This document shows positions 30,022 through 41,926 of a DNA stretch of 64,000 bases, in pieces. The notes under the pieces are model-generated. The model was not told the origin of the DNA. It did not search any database and saw only the letters and a program-made list of their open reading frames with translations. Location: contig CABYQR010000001.1 in NCBI GenBank assembly GCA_902521155.1, positions 180,279 to 244,278 of the forward strand. Reading direction: 5' to 3'. How positions within the stretch are numbered: position 1 is the first letter of the stretch; each line of letters begins with the position of its first letter. This DNA comes from an uncultured Alphaproteobacteria bacterium (GTDB lineage Bacteria > Pseudomonadota > Alphaproteobacteria > HIMB59). Position numbers and translations under genes: made by a program.

Positions 30022-30261
30022 GTGCAAGTAAAAATATACAGTAAAGAAAATTGTGTTTTTTGTGTTAAAGCCAAAGCTGTTTTAGAGAAACATAACCCCG
30101 AGGTACTGATGTTAGACGAAGATTATAATCGTGACCAATTCTTTGAAATATTTCCTACTGCAAAAACTTTTCCTCAAATAATTATTAACGAAGAAAAAAT
30201 TGGTGGATATCACGAATTAGAACGTTGGATGGCATTTAACAAACCAGACGATAACTTCTAG
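30022..30261 (+). CDS. Glutaredoxin
   Basis: 79-aa thiol-disulfide protein with the dithiol motif CVFC near residue 11 and TFPQIIIN (cis-Pro) and GGYHEL (glutathione-site) motifs. It starts with GTG directly after the nrdB stop and is therefore the likely electron donor to the reductase, as in nrdAB-grx operons. The CVFC core is less usual than CPYC. Confidence 0.9.
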   Translation: MQVKIYSKENCVFCVKAKAVLEKHNPEVLMLDEDYNRDQFFEIFPTAKTFPQIIINEEKIGGYHELERWMAFNKPDDNF

Positions 30262-30824
30262 TGCCCTCATATAAGTACCAAGAAATATTAAATTTTTGGT
30301 TTGAAGAGTCGTCTTCAAAGGATCACTGGGCTAAAAACAAGGAATATGATCAGAAAATAAGAGAGCGTTTTTTAGATGATGTTGAAAAAGCTATTCGGAA
30401 TGAATATGATTATTGGCAAGATGAGGCTAAGAGTAGTTTAGCACTTGTTATTCTCTTAGACCAATTCTCTAGAAACCTTTATAGGGAAGATCCAAAGTCC
30501 TACACACAAGACACAAAGGCAAGATTATTAGTGACAGAGGGTGTTGACCGACAGTATTTAGATGAATTAGATGTATCAGAAAGACTATTTTATCTATTAC
30601 CCCTCATACATAGCGAAGATCTTCAAGATCATATTTATGTTCATCAGTTGGGCGAAGTTTTTTTAAAAGAAAATCCTAACTATGAAAATATAAAAAAGTC
30701 TTGGGGTGATCACATGGTTGTTATTAAAAAATTTGGTAGGTATCCTCATCGAAATAAAATACTCAATCGAAAATCAACACCAGGGGAAATTGAATTTCTT
30801 AAAGGACCTAATTCCTCTTGGTGA
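30261..30824 (+). CDS. DUF924 family protein
   Basis: 187-aa protein with the DUF924 pattern: ILNFWFEE at the N-terminus, LALVILLDQFSRNLYR in the middle and FGRYPHRNKILNR near the end. The family is alpha-helical, common in proteobacteria and without a settled function. The GTG start shares one base with the glutaredoxin stop, so it is the last gene of the nrd operon. It ends 5 bp from the convergent anti-sigma gene. Confidence 0.88.
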   Translation: MPSYKYQEILNFWFEESSSKDHWAKNKEYDQKIRERFLDDVEKAIRNEYDYWQDEAKSSLALVILLDQFSRNLYREDPKSYTQDTKARLLVTEGVDRQYLDELDVSERLFYLLPLIHSEDLQDHIYVHQLGEVFLKENPNYENIKKSWGDHMVVIKKFGRYPHRNKILNRKSTPGEIEFLKGPNSSW

Positions 30825-30829
30825 TTTAT

Positions 30830-31465
30830 TCAAATATCTTGTATTGGGCCCTTGATAAAACTCAATTTTACAATTTTCTCTAATCCACCCTGATCGCATA
30901 TCACGGCTTCCGTGATGGTTAAGTCTTGATAGTTAAGGTTATCAAATTCTATATTTAAGCAATTTTCATTTGAGTTATTGATGAATTTAGATTTTATGGA
31001 ATAGGTAATTTGCTTTTCAAAAATTCCACTTAAAATAATAAAATCATCAGACTCCCCAGTAATTTTTTGAATCTCTTGAACTATTAAATTTTTAGACTGA
31101 TCTTCTAACATAAACTCAGGTCTATTGTCTTCTATAGATGCAAATTGCATAGTGTTGAAAGTTAATACTGATCCTAAAGAAGCAGCTAAGATAGAGCCAA
31201 TGGTTGGGATAATTCCAATTTTTAATTTTGAAAATTTTTTCCAAATACTCTCCTCTTCAACAAGTAGATTTTTAATTGAAGGAGGGACTTCATCTTTGAT
31301 GATTTTCGCATAAAATGCTTTCACATCTTGATTGATCTTTCTTAAATCTTCAACTTTTTTTCTAATCTCTGGATCAACATTCATGATTGTTTCAAATTCT
31401 TTGAGCTCTTGTTCCTTTAACTCTCCATCAATATAAGAATTAATTTTCAGATCATCAATTTTCAT
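30830..31465 (-). CDS. Transmembrane anti-sigma factor
   Basis: 211-aa protein with an N-terminal cytoplasmic domain (YIDGELKEQELKEFETIM, the usual anti-sigma start), one membrane segment near residues 80-105 (IGIIPTIGSILAASLGSVLTF) and a periplasmic tail of about 105 aa. No zinc-binding HxxxCxxC is visible. It overlaps the ECF sigma gene by 11 bp, the standard sigma/anti-sigma arrangement. It probably holds the sigma factor until an envelope signal is received; the tail has no family I recognise. Confidence 0.85.
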   Translation of the reverse strand: MKIDDLKINSYIDGELKEQELKEFETIMNVDPEIRKKVEDLRKINQDVKAFYAKIIKDEVPPSIKNLLVEEESIWKKFSKLKIGIIPTIGSILAASLGSVLTFNTMQFASIEDNRPEFMLEDQSKNLIVQEIQKITGESDDFIILSGIFEKQITYSIKSKFINNSNENCLNIEFDNLNYQDLTITEAVICDQGGLEKIVKLSFIKGPIQDI

Positions 31466-31961
31466 TTAATCCATCCTTACTTATCAAAGCTTTTAATTTT
31501 TTCCTTGATTCATTAATTCTACTCATAACTGTGCCTATAGGAATATCTAGTATTTCAGAGATCTCTTTATAAGATCTTTCTTCAATTGTAGCTAAAAGAA
31601 AAGTTGATTTTAAATTTTCTGATAATTCATTTATCAATTTATGTATTTTTTTGTGTTTTCTTTTTGAGTCTATTGCTTCGTTAAGATCAATATCATTAGT
31701 AGAAAAGGTATTAGAAAAATCCTCAATATTGTATGTTTCAACTTTTCTTTTTTTTAGTTTATCTTTCCAATCATTAGAAATGATTTTATAAAAATAAGCA
31801 TTTAAATTATCAATATGATTTATATCTTTATTCATTGACAAAATTTTGATTATAGAATCTTGGAGAAGATCATCACCTTTATCAATACTTCCGGTCAGTC
31901 CGTATGAATATCTTCTAAGTTGTGGCACCATCTCTAATAACTTTTTTTTTACTAAACTCAT
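31455..31961 (-). CDS. ECF-type RNA polymerase sigma factor
   Basis: 168-aa group IV sigma factor. Region 2 is seen in YSYGLTGSIDKGDDLLQDSIIKIL and NAYFYKIISNDWKD, region 4 in LLATIEERSYKEISEILDIPIGTVMSRINESRKKL, a helix-turn-helix that reads the -35. There is no NepR-PhyR context, so it is not the EcfG general-stress factor. It is probably released from the overlapping anti-sigma protein. Its own leader carries a promoter with the same elements as the divergent target gene. Confidence 0.93.
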   Translation of the reverse strand: MSLVKKKLLEMVPQLRRYSYGLTGSIDKGDDLLQDSIIKILSMNKDINHIDNLNAYFYKIISNDWKDKLKKRKVETYNIEDFSNTFSTNDIDLNEAIDSKRKHKKIHKLINELSENLKSTFLLATIEERSYKEISEILDIPIGTVMSRINESRKKLKALISKDGLNEN

Positions 31962-31997
31962 ATCTCTTACTTATAGGAGTTTTATCTTAAAGTATAA

Positions 31998-32021
31998 GAC
32001 GAGAGACCACTAAATTTATTC
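31998..32021 (-). promoter_or_regulatory. Predicted ECF promoter of the sigma/anti-sigma operon
   Basis: On the minus strand CGAATAAATTT is followed, 14 nt after GAATAA, by CGTC. CGTC-type -10 elements and AT-rich GAA-containing -35 elements are typical of ECF promoters. It lies 37 bp upstream of the sigma start codon, consistent with autoregulation. The match to the opposite-strand copy is the main evidence. Confidence 0.65.
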
Positions 32022-32037
32022 GATATCGAATAAATTT
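32012..32037. repeat. 26-bp perfect palindrome in divergent promoter
   Basis: The two 13-base halves AAATTTATTCGAT and ATCGAATAAATTT are exact reverse complements with no spacer. The palindrome supplies the -35 element of each of two divergent promoters. It could also bind a dimeric regulator. Confidence 0.85.
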
Positions 32038-32051
32038 TATTTTTATTCGTC
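32028..32051 (+). promoter_or_regulatory. Predicted ECF promoter of the repeat-protein operon
   Basis: CGAATAAATTT on the plus strand is followed, again 14 nt after GAATAA, by CGTC. The -10 element lies 31 bp before the ATG at 32082. Elements and spacing are the same as those of the minus-strand promoter, so both are probably read by the adjacent ECF sigma factor. Confidence 0.68.
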
Positions 32052-32081
32052 ATAGTTAGTATGATAAAAAAGGAGGTTAAA

Positions 32082-33473
32082 ATGGGAATAAATTCAATAA
32101 AAAAAAAGATAATTTCGATAAAACTAGTATCATTTCTGATTATTGCTAATTTTTTTTTGATAGGTAGCAATTTAGAATTAAATAGATTAAACAATAGTTT
32201 TACTAAATTTGATATTTTTCCATCTGCTTTAGCTAAAGAGGATAAAAAAGCTGAAAAGGCATCAAAAAAAGAGACGAAATCTGCTGAAAAGGCATCAAAA
32301 AAAGAGACGAAATCTGCTGAAAAGGCATCAAAAAAAGAGACGAAATCTGCTGAAAAGGCATCAAAAAAAGAACCTAAGAAACTAGATAAAGGTGCCAAAA
32401 AAGAAGATAAAGATCAACAAAAGAAGGTTGATAAGGAGCTTAAAAAACTACTAAAAAAAGCAGAAAAAGATAAGCAAAAAGAAATAAAAGAGTCTCAAAA
32501 ACTTACAGCATGGTCAGATAAAAAATTTGATCAAGCTTTTGAAGGCTATGCAAAAAAAGTTCAACAAGCTCAACTAAAATATCAAGAAAAGATAGCTACG
32601 CTTGTAGAAGGAGATAGTGCCAAAGCAGCCTTTAAAATAGAACAGCAAGAAGACAAACTAGCTAATCGATTAGCTAAGTCTGATAACCAATTTATTGAAA
32701 AAATAAATAATGTATCAAAAAAATTGGAAAAAAGTGAATCTACTTCTTTAGTTCAAAGTGGTTGGGTAAAAGAAGAATTGTTTGCTAAAGATTTCACTAA
32801 TCATGGGCAACGAGTAAAAACTTATGTGGAAATTGCTAAGGCCCAAGGCCTACCTGCATATGTTGGGGCTCTTCAAGCAAACTTTGGTAATCCCTACGAA
32901 ACAGGAATAGATGATCTAAATAAACAAATTGATAGTCTTAATAGTTTCATTGAAGAGGCCAATTTAGAAATTGTTACTAATCAAAATACTATTTCAGATC
33001 TATCAACACAATTAGGTTTGGCTGAAAGTGAAGTTGTTAATTTAATTGGAGAACTAAATTTAAATAACGAAAATCTTGATACTATTACAAATCAAATAGC
33101 TAAAATTAATAGTTCATTAATTGATGAGACATTATCTGAGGATGAAGTATCAATTCTTCAAGAGCAGAAGAATAACTTAAACTTACAACTACTAGAGTTA
33201 TCTGACAATACAGATGAATTAAACCAGCAGATCTCCATTGTTACCAAAGAAGTAAAGAGTTTTGAATCTAGTATTCAAAACCTAGACGTTAAAATCAATG
33301 ATTTAGAGACAAAAATAATTGTAAGTGAGCGAGAAATAGTAACAACTGAAATAGAAGTTGTTGAAACCATTGAAAACGTTAAACCTGGCGTTGGTCAAGA
33401 ATTTGAATGGGAAACTGTCAATCTAGATATTAATCAAGATGGAGTCGTAGATGAAAGTGATATTCAGACATAA
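32082..33473 (+). CDS. Secreted Lys-rich repeat / coiled-coil protein with C-terminal EF-hand-like motif
   Basis: About 463 aa, family not recognised. I choose ATG 32082 because AGGAGGTTAAA precedes it; the track start at 32061 lies before that ribosome site. The N-terminus (KKKIISIKLVSFLIIANFFLIG) looks like a signal peptide or anchor. A Lys/Ala/Glu-rich section has three exact 11-residue repeats (AEKASKKETKS) plus part of a fourth. A long coiled coil follows (LNKQIDSLNSFIEE...). The last 18 residues contain DINQDGVVDESD, a calcium-binding EF-hand/dockerin-type loop. It is driven by a predicted ECF promoter and overlaps the next gene. Confidence 0.75.
   Translation: MGINSIKKKIISIKLVSFLIIANFFLIGSNLELNRLNNSFTKFDIFPSALAKEDKKAEKASKKETKSAEKASKKETKSAEKASKKETKSAEKASKKEPKKLDKGAKKEDKDQQKKVDKELKKLLKKAEKDKQKEIKESQKLTAWSDKKFDQAFEGYAKKVQQAQLKYQEKIATLVEGDSAKAAFKIEQQEDKLANRLAKSDNQFIEKINNVSKKLEKSESTSLVQSGWVKEELFAKDFTNHGQRVKTYVEIAKAQGLPAYVGALQANFGNPYETGIDDLNKQIDSLNSFIEEANLEIVTNQNTISDLSTQLGLAESEVVNLIGELNLNNENLDTITNQIAKINSSLIDETLSEDEVSILQEQKNNLNLQLLELSDNTDELNQQISIVTKEVKSFESSIQNLDVKINDLETKIIVSEREIVTTEIEVVETIENVKPGVGQEFEWETVNLDINQDGVVDESDIQT
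32250..32372 (+). repeat. 33-bp tandem repeats (3 full copies plus part) within coding sequence
   Basis: The unit begins GCTGAAAAGGCATCAAAA and is 33 bp (11 codons). Copies start at 32250, 32283 and 32316, with a partial copy at 32349. The full copies look identical at the DNA level, including third positions, which indicates recent duplication or conversion. Confidence 0.9.
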
Positions 33474-33852
33474 ATTCATCAAAGCGAATATTGGAAGCTG
33501 GCCATTAATTTTAGGGCTAGCTTTTTTTTTTCTCACCCATATAAGCTCTGCTGAAGAAATTATAGACGAACAAGTATACAGTAATTTAACAGAGCAAGAG
33601 CTTGAGGCTGCCACTGTTAATTTAGTATTGGCCTTAGAAACTCTTCCAGATGGTGATCAAGTTGAGTGGAAAGCAGGCCAATACTCAGGTTACGTAATCC
33701 CATCGTCAACTTTTATTAATGAGGAGGGATATTTTTGTAGAGAGTATCTTGAAGTTTTTCAAAAATTCTCAGAATACAACATGTATCAAAACAAAGCTTG
33801 TAGAGACCATGATGGGGAATGGGTATGGTTTGAAACTATTTTTACTGAATAA
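33451..33852 (+). CDS. Secreted protein with 17-kDa surface antigen-like C-terminal domain
   Basis: 133 aa. A signal peptide is visible (IGSWPLILGLAFFFLTHISSA). The C-terminal part WKAGQYSGYVIPSS...YFCREYLEVFQ...KACRDHDGEWVWF resembles the CR.Y...G.ACR..DG.W pattern of the rickettsial 17-kDa antigen domain, here without the glycine zipper. Two Cys could form a disulfide. It overlaps the repeat-protein gene by 23 bp in another frame, with GGAG before the ATG, so translation is probably coupled. Confidence 0.7.
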   Translation: MKVIFRHKFIKANIGSWPLILGLAFFFLTHISSAEEIIDEQVYSNLTEQELEAATVNLVLALETLPDGDQVEWKAGQYSGYVIPSSTFINEEGYFCREYLEVFQKFSEYNMYQNKACRDHDGEWVWFETIFTE

Positions 33853-33885
33853 TACTTAAAATTTATTTTTTATACTCATTTAAAT

Positions 33886-36564
33886 TTAATGAGCTTCGCC
33901 CCAATTTAAGCCACCACCGAAGTCAACTTTAATAGGAGTTTTAAAAGATTTATATCTTTGATGAGACTCCTCCATTAATTGTGTAATTTTAGGGATAATA
34001 TCTTTTTCATCTTTATGTATCTCAAACAATAATTCATCGTGAACCTGTGATGTCATTTTTGATTTAAAATTATTTTTATTTAAGTATTGATGAATTTCTA
34101 GCATTGCTATTTTTATTAACTCTGATGCTGTTCCCTGAATGGGTGCATTGATCGCTTGTCTTTCAGCGAAGGAACGAAGCATAAAATTTTTAGCATTGAT
34201 ATCTTTAATATGAGACTTTCTTCCAAAAAGATTTTCTACGTAACCTAATTTCTTCGCCTTATCAGTTGTTGCTTTCATGAAATCATTGATGTTTGGGAAT
34301 TTCTGAAAATAGTTATCAATGAAAAGCTTTGCTTCAGCATTACTGACGCCTAATTGTTTTGCTAATCCATACTGGCTGATACCATAAATAATTCCAAAGT
34401 TAATAATTTTGGCCATTCTTCTGTCATTATCATTGATTTCTTTTTTATTGAATACTAACTGACCGGTACTTTGATGAATATCTTGATCTTCTTGAAAAGC
34501 ATTTAATAGATTTGGGTCCTCACAGGCCTCACAAAGGACACGAAGCTCGATTTGAGAGTAGTCAAAACTATATAATTCATGATCTTTTTCAGCAATAAAT
34601 GCCGTTCTAATTTTTTTACCTATTTCGGTCCTAATTGGAATATTTTGTAAATTAGGCTCTGAAGAGCTCAATCTGCCTGTAATAGTAGCTGCGATATTGA
34701 AGGTACTGTGAACTCTATCATTAGCATCAGCGCGTTCCGCCAGAGATGAGGTATAAGTAGAAACTAGCTTAGAGTACTGGCGCCATTTTAGGATATGAGA
34801 GGCAATTTCTATACCTTCTGACTCTAGTTGTTCTAAAACTTTAACATTTGTTTGAAAATCTCCAGCTTTAGTTTTTTTAGTCACTTTGACATCGAGTTTT
34901 TTAAGAATTTCAGTTAGCTGTTTTGGCGAACCTATATTGAATTCTTCCCCAGCAATTTTAAATATTTTGCTTTCTATTTTTTCAATTTCTTTATTGAGGT
35001 CTTTTTCTAATTTAGTCAAAAATTTTAAATCAATCTTACAGCCATTTCTTTCAACCTCCTGTAAGACAAGACTGAGTTTTTTATCAATATCATAATAAAT
35101 ATAACTGTCTGGGTTTTGAGATATTTGCTCTTGCAATGCTTCGTATAACTGGTGAGTAGCATACGCATCGTGAGCTGCATAATTAGTTGCTGACTCTAAT
35201 GGGACTTCAGAAAAATCTTTATATTTTCTTTTTGACTCATTTTTAATGACATCCTTAAATTTTTCTTTTTCTTCACCAAAATAATAATAGTACAAGTCCT
35301 CTAGGTTGTGCTTTGTTAAACCATTGTTGACAAAAAAAGACATGAGTAGTGTGTCTTGAAAAGAAACTGTATTAACTTTAAAACGCTTTAGAATAACACA
35401 ATCATATTTGGCATTATGAAATATTTTTAGAATAGACTCATCCATACATAATTCATTAAGTGCTTTTAAGACTTTATTTTGATCTATTAGAGATAATTCA
35501 TTATCGGGTGATTTAAAAGGTAAGTAGTAAGCTTGATTTGAATTAGACAATGAAATACCAATTATATTTGCTTCATTAACATCTAAGCTGTCCGTTTCTA
35601 GGTCAATAGCTAGGGTTTTTTCTAAATTAAGTGAATTAAGATATTCGATCATCTCCTTAGACTTAATTATGGATTTAAATTCAATTTTTGATTTGGAGAC
35701 ATGGGGCTTTGTTTCGTTTGCACTGGTGCGAATTAGTGATTTAAATTCATATTTTTTAAAAAAATCATTTAGCTTTATTGAGTCATCAAACTCTTTTAAC
35801 TTTTCAATTTTGATTGGTAGCTCCAAATCATTTTTTAAAATCACTAATTGATGGCTGATTTTGGCTGACTCTTCATGGTCATGAATAAGATTTTTGATAC
35901 GAACATTTGAGATTTGCTCTTTTTTTTCTAAAAGCTCCTCAAAAGTACCAAATTCATTGATAAGTTTTGCTGCCGTCTTAGGTCCAATACCAGGTACTCC
36001 TGGAATATTATCGACACTATCTCCAATAAGGGCCTGGACATCAGTGATCCTATCTGAGCCTACGCCAAATTTTTCCATAACCTTTGCTTCATCTATCTCT
36101 ACATTTTTCATGGGATCCATAATGCGTGTATTAGGAGATAGTAACTGAAATAAATCTTTATCAGAGCTAAAGACTGTCGTAGGAATTTTATTATCTTCTC
36201 CGTATTTCACATAGCTTGCAATAACATCATCTGCCTCAAAATCTTTTTTCTCTATTACGTCTAAACCAAATGCTTCGATAGCCTCTCTAATAATTCCAAA
36301 TTGGGGAATAAGATCTTCTGGTGCTTCACCTCTATTAGCTTTGTATTCAGGGTACAGAGTATTTCGAAAAGTATTTTTACCTGCATCAAGAATTAGTAAA
36401 ATTTTATCCTGGGGGTGCTCTTCAATTAAGCGTAGCATCATATTACAAAAACCATAGACAGCATTTGTAGGAATGCCTTTTGAATTATTCATGGGAGGTA
36501 GGGCGTAATAGGCACGAAAGATATACCCAGAGCCATCGACAAGAATTAAACGAGACTCAGACAT
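33886..36564 (-). CDS. polA: DNA polymerase I
   Basis: 892 aa with all three domains: N-terminal 5'-3' nuclease (LILVDGSGYIFRAYYA, DFEADDVIA, IPGVPGIGPKTAAKL), 3'-5' proofreading domain with LAIDLETDSL retaining the metal Asp/Glu, and the polymerase with YSFDYSQIELRVL, RRMAKIINFGIIYG and SQVHDELLFE. It fills gaps in repair and removes Okazaki primers. It is monocistronic between the convergent antigen-like gene and regA. Confidence 0.98.
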   Translation of the reverse strand: MSESRLILVDGSGYIFRAYYALPPMNNSKGIPTNAVYGFCNMMLRLIEEHPQDKILLILDAGKNTFRNTLYPEYKANRGEAPEDLIPQFGIIREAIEAFGLDVIEKKDFEADDVIASYVKYGEDNKIPTTVFSSDKDLFQLLSPNTRIMDPMKNVEIDEAKVMEKFGVGSDRITDVQALIGDSVDNIPGVPGIGPKTAAKLINEFGTFEELLEKKEQISNVRIKNLIHDHEESAKISHQLVILKNDLELPIKIEKLKEFDDSIKLNDFFKKYEFKSLIRTSANETKPHVSKSKIEFKSIIKSKEMIEYLNSLNLEKTLAIDLETDSLDVNEANIIGISLSNSNQAYYLPFKSPDNELSLIDQNKVLKALNELCMDESILKIFHNAKYDCVILKRFKVNTVSFQDTLLMSFFVNNGLTKHNLEDLYYYYFGEEKEKFKDVIKNESKRKYKDFSEVPLESATNYAAHDAYATHQLYEALQEQISQNPDSYIYYDIDKKLSLVLQEVERNGCKIDLKFLTKLEKDLNKEIEKIESKIFKIAGEEFNIGSPKQLTEILKKLDVKVTKKTKAGDFQTNVKVLEQLESEGIEIASHILKWRQYSKLVSTYTSSLAERADANDRVHSTFNIAATITGRLSSSEPNLQNIPIRTEIGKKIRTAFIAEKDHELYSFDYSQIELRVLCEACEDPNLLNAFQEDQDIHQSTGQLVFNKKEINDNDRRMAKIINFGIIYGISQYGLAKQLGVSNAEAKLFIDNYFQKFPNINDFMKATTDKAKKLGYVENLFGRKSHIKDINAKNFMLRSFAERQAINAPIQGTASELIKIAMLEIHQYLNKNNFKSKMTSQVHDELLFEIHKDEKDIIPKITQLMEESHQRYKSFKTPIKVDFGGGLNWGEAH

Positions 36565-37154: not shown

Positions 37155-38389
37155 GTTAAAGTTACTTCCGCTCCATTGTTATTTTGTACTAAAATTTCAC
37201 CATTTAGATTTTCGATCATTTGTTTTGTTATAAATAGGCCAAGACCCATATTTACCCCTGTTTCGGGCCTAGTAGAATAGAATGGTTTACCAAAATTAGC
37301 TATAAACTTTTTATCAAAGCCAGGCCCATCATCGCGTATTGTAATACTATATTCTGGGCCTTTAGAGCCTACTATGATGAGAATTTCATGATTTGCAAAA
37401 CTAATTGAATTTTTGATAATATTATTCATTGCTATATTAAGCTCTGGGGTAATTTTGATATTAATATTTTTAGATTCCTCATCTGAGCGGTAGTCTAATT
37501 TAATATTCTTGTAGTTGTTATCAAACTGAGCGCAAAGTGATTGTGCGTATGCATCCAAAGACATATTACTAATTTCTTGAGTTAATTCTTTAGACTCAGG
37601 ATTAGTCGATAGGTCTTTGAGGATTGCTTTACAACGATCTAGTTCTAGTTTGAGGGTTTGAATATCTTCATTATATTTTTTATTTAATTGTTCATCTTGA
37701 TCAAAATCTCCAACAATAAGATTAATGGTGTTTAAGGGCGTTCCCAATTCATGAACTGCGGCAGCTGCTAGGCCTCCTACTTTCAAAAGCTCTCTTTCAT
37801 TTTGTAATTGTTCTCTGGAAAGCTCGTAGGCATTTTGAGTGCTTTTATAATTTAGAGAGAAATAGTAGAGATAAAATACTAAAAAGATACTACTTATAAA
37901 TAATGATATCATTATTCCTAAACTATAATTAATGTTAATTTCAGGTCTTACTTCGAGAGGGAGATCTAAATAAAAATTAAAAATTAAAGCAAAGCATACA
38001 AGTGACAAACTTAAGATAGCCATAATTTTTTCTATTGTGAGGTAGGAAGCAGCAATAGCGATGGGTGCTAAAATAATAAAGATAAAGGGATTAGTGTACC
38101 CTCCATTTAATGCAATCAATAAAGAAATTTGTAAGATATCAAAACATAAAAAAATAAAAATTTGTTTTTCAGATAAAACTTTGTCTCCTTTTTTTAAGAG
38201 GTAATAGGATATTCCCACACTCAATAATAAACAGAAGGCGACTAACCAAGATAAGTAGGTAACTTTTAAAGAAAATTCAAAAAAATATTGTGATACTATT
38301 AGAGTTATTGCTTGCCCCGCAAAGGCTATAATCCTTATAAGTAAAAAGTCTGAGGAATTAACAAATAAAAGTTTGTTTTTGTTTTCCAA
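37142..38389 (-). CDS. regB: Redox sensor histidine kinase RegB/ActS/PrrB
   Basis: 415 aa with about six membrane segments. NGGYTNPFIF contains the GGxxNPF quinone-site motif of RegB. AAAAVHELGTPLNTI is the phospho-acceptor H-box. LDRCKAILKDLS carries a cysteine in the position of the redox-active Cys of the family. The ATPase part ends with IRDDGPGFD and GLGLFITKQMIE. The TTG start lies 1 bp after the gyrB stop, giving a gyrB-regB-regA run that I do not recall as common. Confidence 0.94.
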   Translation of the reverse strand: MENKNKLLFVNSSDFLLIRIIAFAGQAITLIVSQYFFEFSLKVTYLSWLVAFCLLLSVGISYYLLKKGDKVLSEKQIFIFLCFDILQISLLIALNGGYTNPFIFIILAPIAIAASYLTIEKIMAILSLSLVCFALIFNFYLDLPLEVRPEININYSLGIMISLFISSIFLVFYLYYFSLNYKSTQNAYELSREQLQNERELLKVGGLAAAAVHELGTPLNTINLIVGDFDQDEQLNKKYNEDIQTLKLELDRCKAILKDLSTNPESKELTQEISNMSLDAYAQSLCAQFDNNYKNIKLDYRSDEESKNINIKITPELNIAMNNIIKNSISFANHEILIIVGSKGPEYSITIRDDGPGFDKKFIANFGKPFYSTRPETGVNMGLGLFITKQMIENLNGEILVQNNNGAEVTLTWQK

Positions 38390-38390
38390 C

Positions 38391-41926
<3,536 letters not shown>

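Follow-up and report, generated by a model that had tools for sequence, protein, structure and literature searches.

In the 64-kb stretch of DNA analyzed here (hereafter, the window), the intergenic region between an ECF sigma factor gene and a divergent gene for a secreted-looking protein very probably carries a back-to-back pair of promoters for that one sigma factor, in which two opposed -35 boxes (CGAATAA) lie 4 bp apart and form a palindrome. The original prediction, that one promoter is present in two mirrored copies and is read by the ECF factor encoded alongside, is, at the level of sequence comparison, strongly supported by homologous loci and by mapped promoters of the ECF26 group. 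The features of the locus are as follows:

30830 to 31465, minus strand: membrane anti-sigma factor gene (211 aa), with an 11-bp overlap onto the end of the sigma gene
31455 to 31961, minus strand: gene for an ECF sigma factor of 168 aa that has only regions 2 and 4 (Pfam Sigma70_r2 and Sigma70_r4_2)
31998 to 32022, minus strand: predicted promoter of the sigma operon, with CGAAT at 32022-32018, N16, and CGTC at 32001-31998; predicted transcription start at ~31989
32012 to 32037, no strand: 26-bp palindrome, with opposed -35 boxes (CGAATAAATTT on each strand) flanking a central GATATC
32027 to 32051, plus strand: predicted promoter of the divergent secreted-protein operon, with CGAAT at 32027-32031, N16, and CGTC at 32048-32051; predicted transcription start at ~32060
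32082 to 33473, plus strand: gene for a secreted-looking protein (463 aa) with an N-terminal hydrophobic segment and a coiled coil, preceded by GGAGG
33451 to 33852, plus strand: gene for a secreted-looking protein (133 aa), a stand-alone anti-sigma periplasmic domain with a CR..AC..W signature

The sequence at 32012-32037, AAATTTATTCGATATCGAATAAATTT, equals its own reverse complement over all 26 bp, beyond which the symmetry ends, and exceeds in length every other perfect palindrome in the window, the runners-up being three of 18 bp. On both strands, GAATAA is followed outward, after exactly 14 nt, by CGTC (32028-32051 on the plus strand and 32021-31998 on the minus strand), and these are the only two matches to GAATAA-N14-CGTC in 64 kb, against 0.04 expected; two or more matches were reached in none of 100 shuffles. 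On each side, the palindrome takes in the -35 box plus the initial 4 nt of the 14-nt spacer, while both CGTC elements and the remaining 10 nt of each spacer lie outside it, so the two CGTCs represent independent agreements. Since CGTC begins at only 0.08% of strand positions in the window and stands at the 14-nt offset for 2 of the 82 GAATAA sites there, the second CGTC is not a by-product of the palindrome. The original prediction was therefore accurate as to the palindrome between the two genes, the GAATAA and CGTC spacing on both strands, the position of the CGTC elements and most of the spacers outside the symmetry, and the independence of the two CGTCs. A search against Rfam gave no match. 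Elsewhere in the window, two perfect 18-bp palindromes (37899-37916 and 38388-38405) are also centered on GATATC, and lie inside and just upstream of a histidine kinase gene.

On protein similarity, the sigma factor encoded in the window is a distant relative of alphaproteobacterial ECF26-type factors. It has the two-region architecture of that group, its nearest homologues are alphaproteobacterial ECF factors (25-36% identity), and RpoE6 from Sinorhizobium meliloti was retrieved with the same query at 29% identity. The core of its recognition helix, IPIGTVMSR, is common to most of these homologues, including the promoter-bearing ones. In a tree of sigma factors, it falls with the alphaproteobacterial set and apart from RpoE-ChrR, on a long branch whose placement inside the set is without support. 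The anti-sigma factor encoded downstream also has the ECF26 layout: an N-terminal anti-sigma domain that matches the anti-sigma factors of homologous loci (profile, 7.2e-13), a single transmembrane helix, and a periplasmic domain of a helix and beta-strands, with two invariant cysteines kept (alignment and predicted topology); a structure search with it against the PDB returned no significant match. The hallmark of RpoE-ChrR (ECF11), a cupin-containing ChrR-type anti-sigma factor, was not found in the window pair, and neither were those of EcfG (ECF15), as the -35 element is CGAAT and not GGAAC, and the neighbors are a membrane anti-sigma factor and secreted proteins and not NepR/PhyR. The one other ECF factor detected in the assembly, on contig C7, is of the RpoE-ChrR type, with a partner assigned as a cupin from reading its sequence.

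Both window sites read CGAAT-N16-CGTC and so agree with the ECF26 pattern of a GGAATA -35 element and a CGT at 16-17 nt from GGAAT. Promoters mapped for the ECF26 group in S. meliloti have -35 GGAAT(A) and -10 CGTC or CGTT (PMC6180224, PMC6527743), GGAAT with CGTC being a published consensus (PMC6527743). When eight S. meliloti promoters listed in PMC6180224 (Table 1) were aligned by box, they followed [GC]GAAT-N16/17-CGT[CT], one of them with TGTC. The window -35 element, CGAAT, is one base off the commonest ECF26 form, GGAAT, and the CGAATAA...CGTC form of the window sites is also that of one mapped promoter, SMc01022. We infer that the window sigma factor would recognize both of its neighboring sites.

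The window cluster is unique to one assembly, and the comparison of conservation therefore rests on homologous systems. Upstream of 41 sigma homologues, picked on protein similarity alone, GGAAT-N16/17-CGTY directed at the sigma gene was found in 18 cases (0.24 in dinucleotide shuffles), a divergent copy in 14 (0.17 in shuffles), and a pair no more than 100 bp apart in 10 (none in any of 200 shuffled sets); because the pattern was refined on these same upstream regions, the exact counts are somewhat favorable, although the gap to the shuffles is very large. Under this pattern, many of the homologues have one of the two promoters only, or none. A scan for mirrored promoters in 385 genomes of the class matched six, with five matches in front of such sigma genes (four of these already known when the pattern was written) and one elsewhere. 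The mirrored-promoter scan also independently recovered the mapped RpoE6-dependent promoter of the divergent protease SMa0142; PMC6180224 describes the arrangement of rpoE6 and a serine protease as one widely conserved for ECF26. In four mirrored loci, Pfam confirms that the divergent gene encodes an S8 protease, and those of G217 and G283 appear protease-like from sequence reading alone. Among eight named plasmid loci, one carries a mirrored pair: plasmid pcSHIWSD5 of Shinella sp. WSD5-1 (NZ_OZ012599.1), with boxes 27 bp apart and a divergent gene annotated as an S8 peptidase. Searches within the family or order around homologous genomes covered one to three genomes each, and their main gain was the pair G283 and G386, from one genus, in which spacers and center have diverged but the boxes and -10 elements have not. 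In open-licence papers, we found no account of back-to-back -35 boxes for an ECF factor.

Three other explanations of the palindrome were weighed against a pair of promoters for one sigma factor. It is unlikely that one site only is an active ECF promoter, with the other operon transcribed through a housekeeping sigma factor and the mirror copy vestigial. This would find a precedent in S. meliloti rpoE6, where the only ECF promoter close to the start is the divergent one and expression seems to be driven by RpoD/RpoH (PMC6180224), and in the several homologues with a single site. However, the two window sites are equally good and are the sole such sites in the window, and no housekeeping-type consensus promoter into either gene was found in the intergenic region.

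It is more improbable still that the palindrome is an operator, at which a dimeric transcription factor controls both genes by repression or activation, the CGTC elements being of secondary importance or there by coincidence. Perfect symmetry over 26 bp, with half-sites about one helical turn apart, would indeed suit a dimeric regulator. In the homologous loci, however, only the -35 boxes recur, and the sequence at the center is not conserved; the gap between opposed boxes is 4 bp in the window (between the CGAAT cores; the tightest pair among the loci compared), 8-9 bp in three homologous loci, and 21-97 bp in the others. A fixed operator would not allow a gap that ranges over 8-97 bp among homologues, and on this variation the operator reading was rejected. 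Moreover, CGTY is kept at N16/17 on each side, and the cluster encodes no other regulator gene. Spacers that stay at 16-17 nt while the box-to-box gap varies argue for two promoters sharing space and not for a fixed operator, and the most fitting reading of the palindrome is thus a pair of opposed -35 boxes with 4 bp between them. Chance, that is, an AT-rich palindrome that happens to lie beside a sigma gene in an AT-rich genome, is scarcely credible: the window has ~33% GC and does hold the shorter palindromes, but GAATAA-N14-CGTC is far in excess of expectation, a mirrored pattern modeled on the window matched the window's own genome and 0 of the 161 others in the order, and a like arrangement is present in homologous loci.

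The sigma factor appears to be dedicated to this single intergenic region, serving two promoters, that of its own operon and that of the divergent secreted-protein operon, because only the window sites adjoin an ORF start; at 78% completeness, the assembly may lack further targets. The promoter scan covered 1.05 Mb of the 1.11-Mb assembly (~94%). A relaxed consensus gave 14 distinct matches, which is not above shifted or reversed controls (7-17), and among these 14 the two window sites were the only ones within 120 nt upstream of an ORF of at least 80 aa. The genome scan for GAATAA-N14-CGTC-type sites upstream of genes that had been proposed as a check thus left only the two window sites in promoter position. 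The third genomic occurrence of GAATAA-N14-CGTC runs into the start of the following reading frame, apparently an acyl-CoA synthetase-like gene, and was taken as a chance match.

In the back-to-back promoter pair, the two -10 elements are separate, with 54 bp from one outer end to the other. In S. meliloti, transcription of SMa0142 and sorT has been mapped to start 9-10 nt past the -10 element, and the same rule applied to the window places the two predicted starts ~70 bp apart, with leaders of ~22 nt for the divergent operon and ~28 nt for the sigma operon. Two polymerases at such a distance would overlap, so the promoters probably exclude each other, with one polymerase bound at a time. The original prediction had further suggested that this competition could give a switch-like or balanced output. 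At the E. coli bidirectional promoters that have been tested, the basal level of activity does not suffice for competition, which is seen only under strong activation of one direction (PMC12825309); on this precedent, the switch-like alternative was not upheld and a balanced output is the more plausible. The two products would be made in a roughly fixed ratio.

The four-gene cluster sits between DUF924/nrdB and polA, flanks that are mostly 80-95% identical within the genus. No match to the window sigma factor above the cut-off was found in the other 161 genomes of the order, from which the cluster is absent, and the equivalent chromosomal spot in 20 relatives holds other genes or nothing. The cluster is thus an insertion peculiar to the species or strain, at a position whose content varies. 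This nrdB-polA spot (30022-33886 in the window) holds in relatives a hydrolase-like gene, a transporter together with bactofilin-like genes, an unknown membrane protein, or almost nothing, as named from reading the sequences. A scan for the sigma factor over 85,000 species returned only remote matches in Bacteroidetes and Planctomycetes, and none was found in viral contigs.

The divergent operon comprises two genes, the second overlapping the end of the first by 23 nt, and the products of both are taken to be secreted from their hydrophobic N-termini. The 463-aa protein has K/E/S-rich 11-aa repeats and a C-terminal DxNxDG EF-hand-like motif; no protease domain was found in it, in contrast to the RpoE6-type locus with its divergent S8/serine protease gene. 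Its repeats are encoded by in-frame 33-bp tandem units (32235-32399), the copy number of which could differ among strains, and divergent genes of homologous loci have acidic repeats at a similar place. The 133-aa protein was matched at 5.1e-7 by a periplasmic-domain profile built from the anti-sigma factors of five homologous loci; no other ORF in the window was significant, and reversed sequences gave no match. The CR, AC, and W positions are common to this protein and the anti-sigma periplasmic domains in the alignment. AlphaFold models it as one helix followed by beta-strands (mean pLDDT, 80), and models the periplasmic part of the window anti-sigma factor as helix then beta-strands as well, with lower confidence; a structure search with the free domain against the PDB gave no significant match. 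In the divergent operons of two other alphaproteobacterial loci, L097 and L101, a gene for a low-complexity secreted protein likewise precedes one for a free anti-sigma-type sensor domain, and the pairing of secreted protein and free domain is thus recurrent. The low-complexity proteins there (L097, 2114-2611; L101, 765-1346) end in EEEQDMISRGW and EQEQDMISKGW, respectively, which resemble the C-terminal tail (EE..L....W) of homologous-locus anti-sigma factors, and mimicry of the sensor tail is possible.

We propose that an envelope signal would cause the membrane anti-sigma factor to release the sigma factor, and that holoenzyme with the released sigma factor would bind one or the other -35 box. 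In one outcome, the sigma/anti-sigma operon would be transcribed, giving autoregulation together with its own brake; in the other, the divergent operon would be transcribed, yielding the secreted coiled-coil protein and the free sensor domain. Sigma factor, anti-sigma factor, and free secreted sensor domain would then be produced from one point, and it is conceivable, if rather doubtful, that they form a closed feedback unit in which the free domain titrates the signal or a sensing partner and so tunes or ends the response. This feedback role is a proposal only; the free sensor-domain protein suggests an unexplored route of feedback onto a membrane anti-sigma factor. The locus would also offer a minimal self-contained sigma module for circuit design.

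Among known systems, the window resembles the ECF26 factors of S. meliloti (RpoE1, RpoE3, RpoE4, and RpoE6) in promoter elements, spacing, and predicted autoregulation (PMC6180224, PMC6527743), in the order of sigma gene then anti-sigma gene, and in the domain layout of the anti-sigma factor; as with RpoE6, the sigma factor would also control a secreted protein encoded divergently from it (PMC6180224, PMC6527743). It differs in the low identity of its sigma factor (29% to RpoE6 and 25-36% to the others), in its CGAAT -35 element, and in a divergent gene that encodes a coiled-coil protein and not a serine protease. In the divergent S8-protease/ECF loci (Shinella NZ_OZ012599.1, G452, G217, G299, G386, and G283), sigma and anti-sigma genes likewise face a secreted gene, with mirrored GGAATA...CGTT/C promoters in between; the -35 gap there is 8-27 bp, compared with 4 bp in the window, the target is a protease with acidic repeats, and a free copy of the sensor domain is absent from the regions read. 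L097 and L101 (family f42) share with the window the low-complexity secreted protein and the overlapping or abutting gene for a free sensor domain, but their repeats are of glycine/aspartate, and the search for a divergent promoter of the standard pattern gave no clear example. That ECF26-like loci repeatedly set two outward copies of the sigma factor's own promoter back to back may be considered a testable family trait, and it would give a natural setting in which to measure competition of polymerases between identical promoters served by a single alternative sigma factor. The bidirectional promoters of E. coli and Salmonella described by Warman, Grainger, and colleagues are similar in their symmetry and in directing polymerase either way, one at a time. 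Those promoters share a symmetrical -10 element and have starts usually 18 bp apart (PMC10268837), whereas the window has opposed -35 boxes and predicted starts well outside the 7-25 bp range that goes with a shared symmetrical -10 element.
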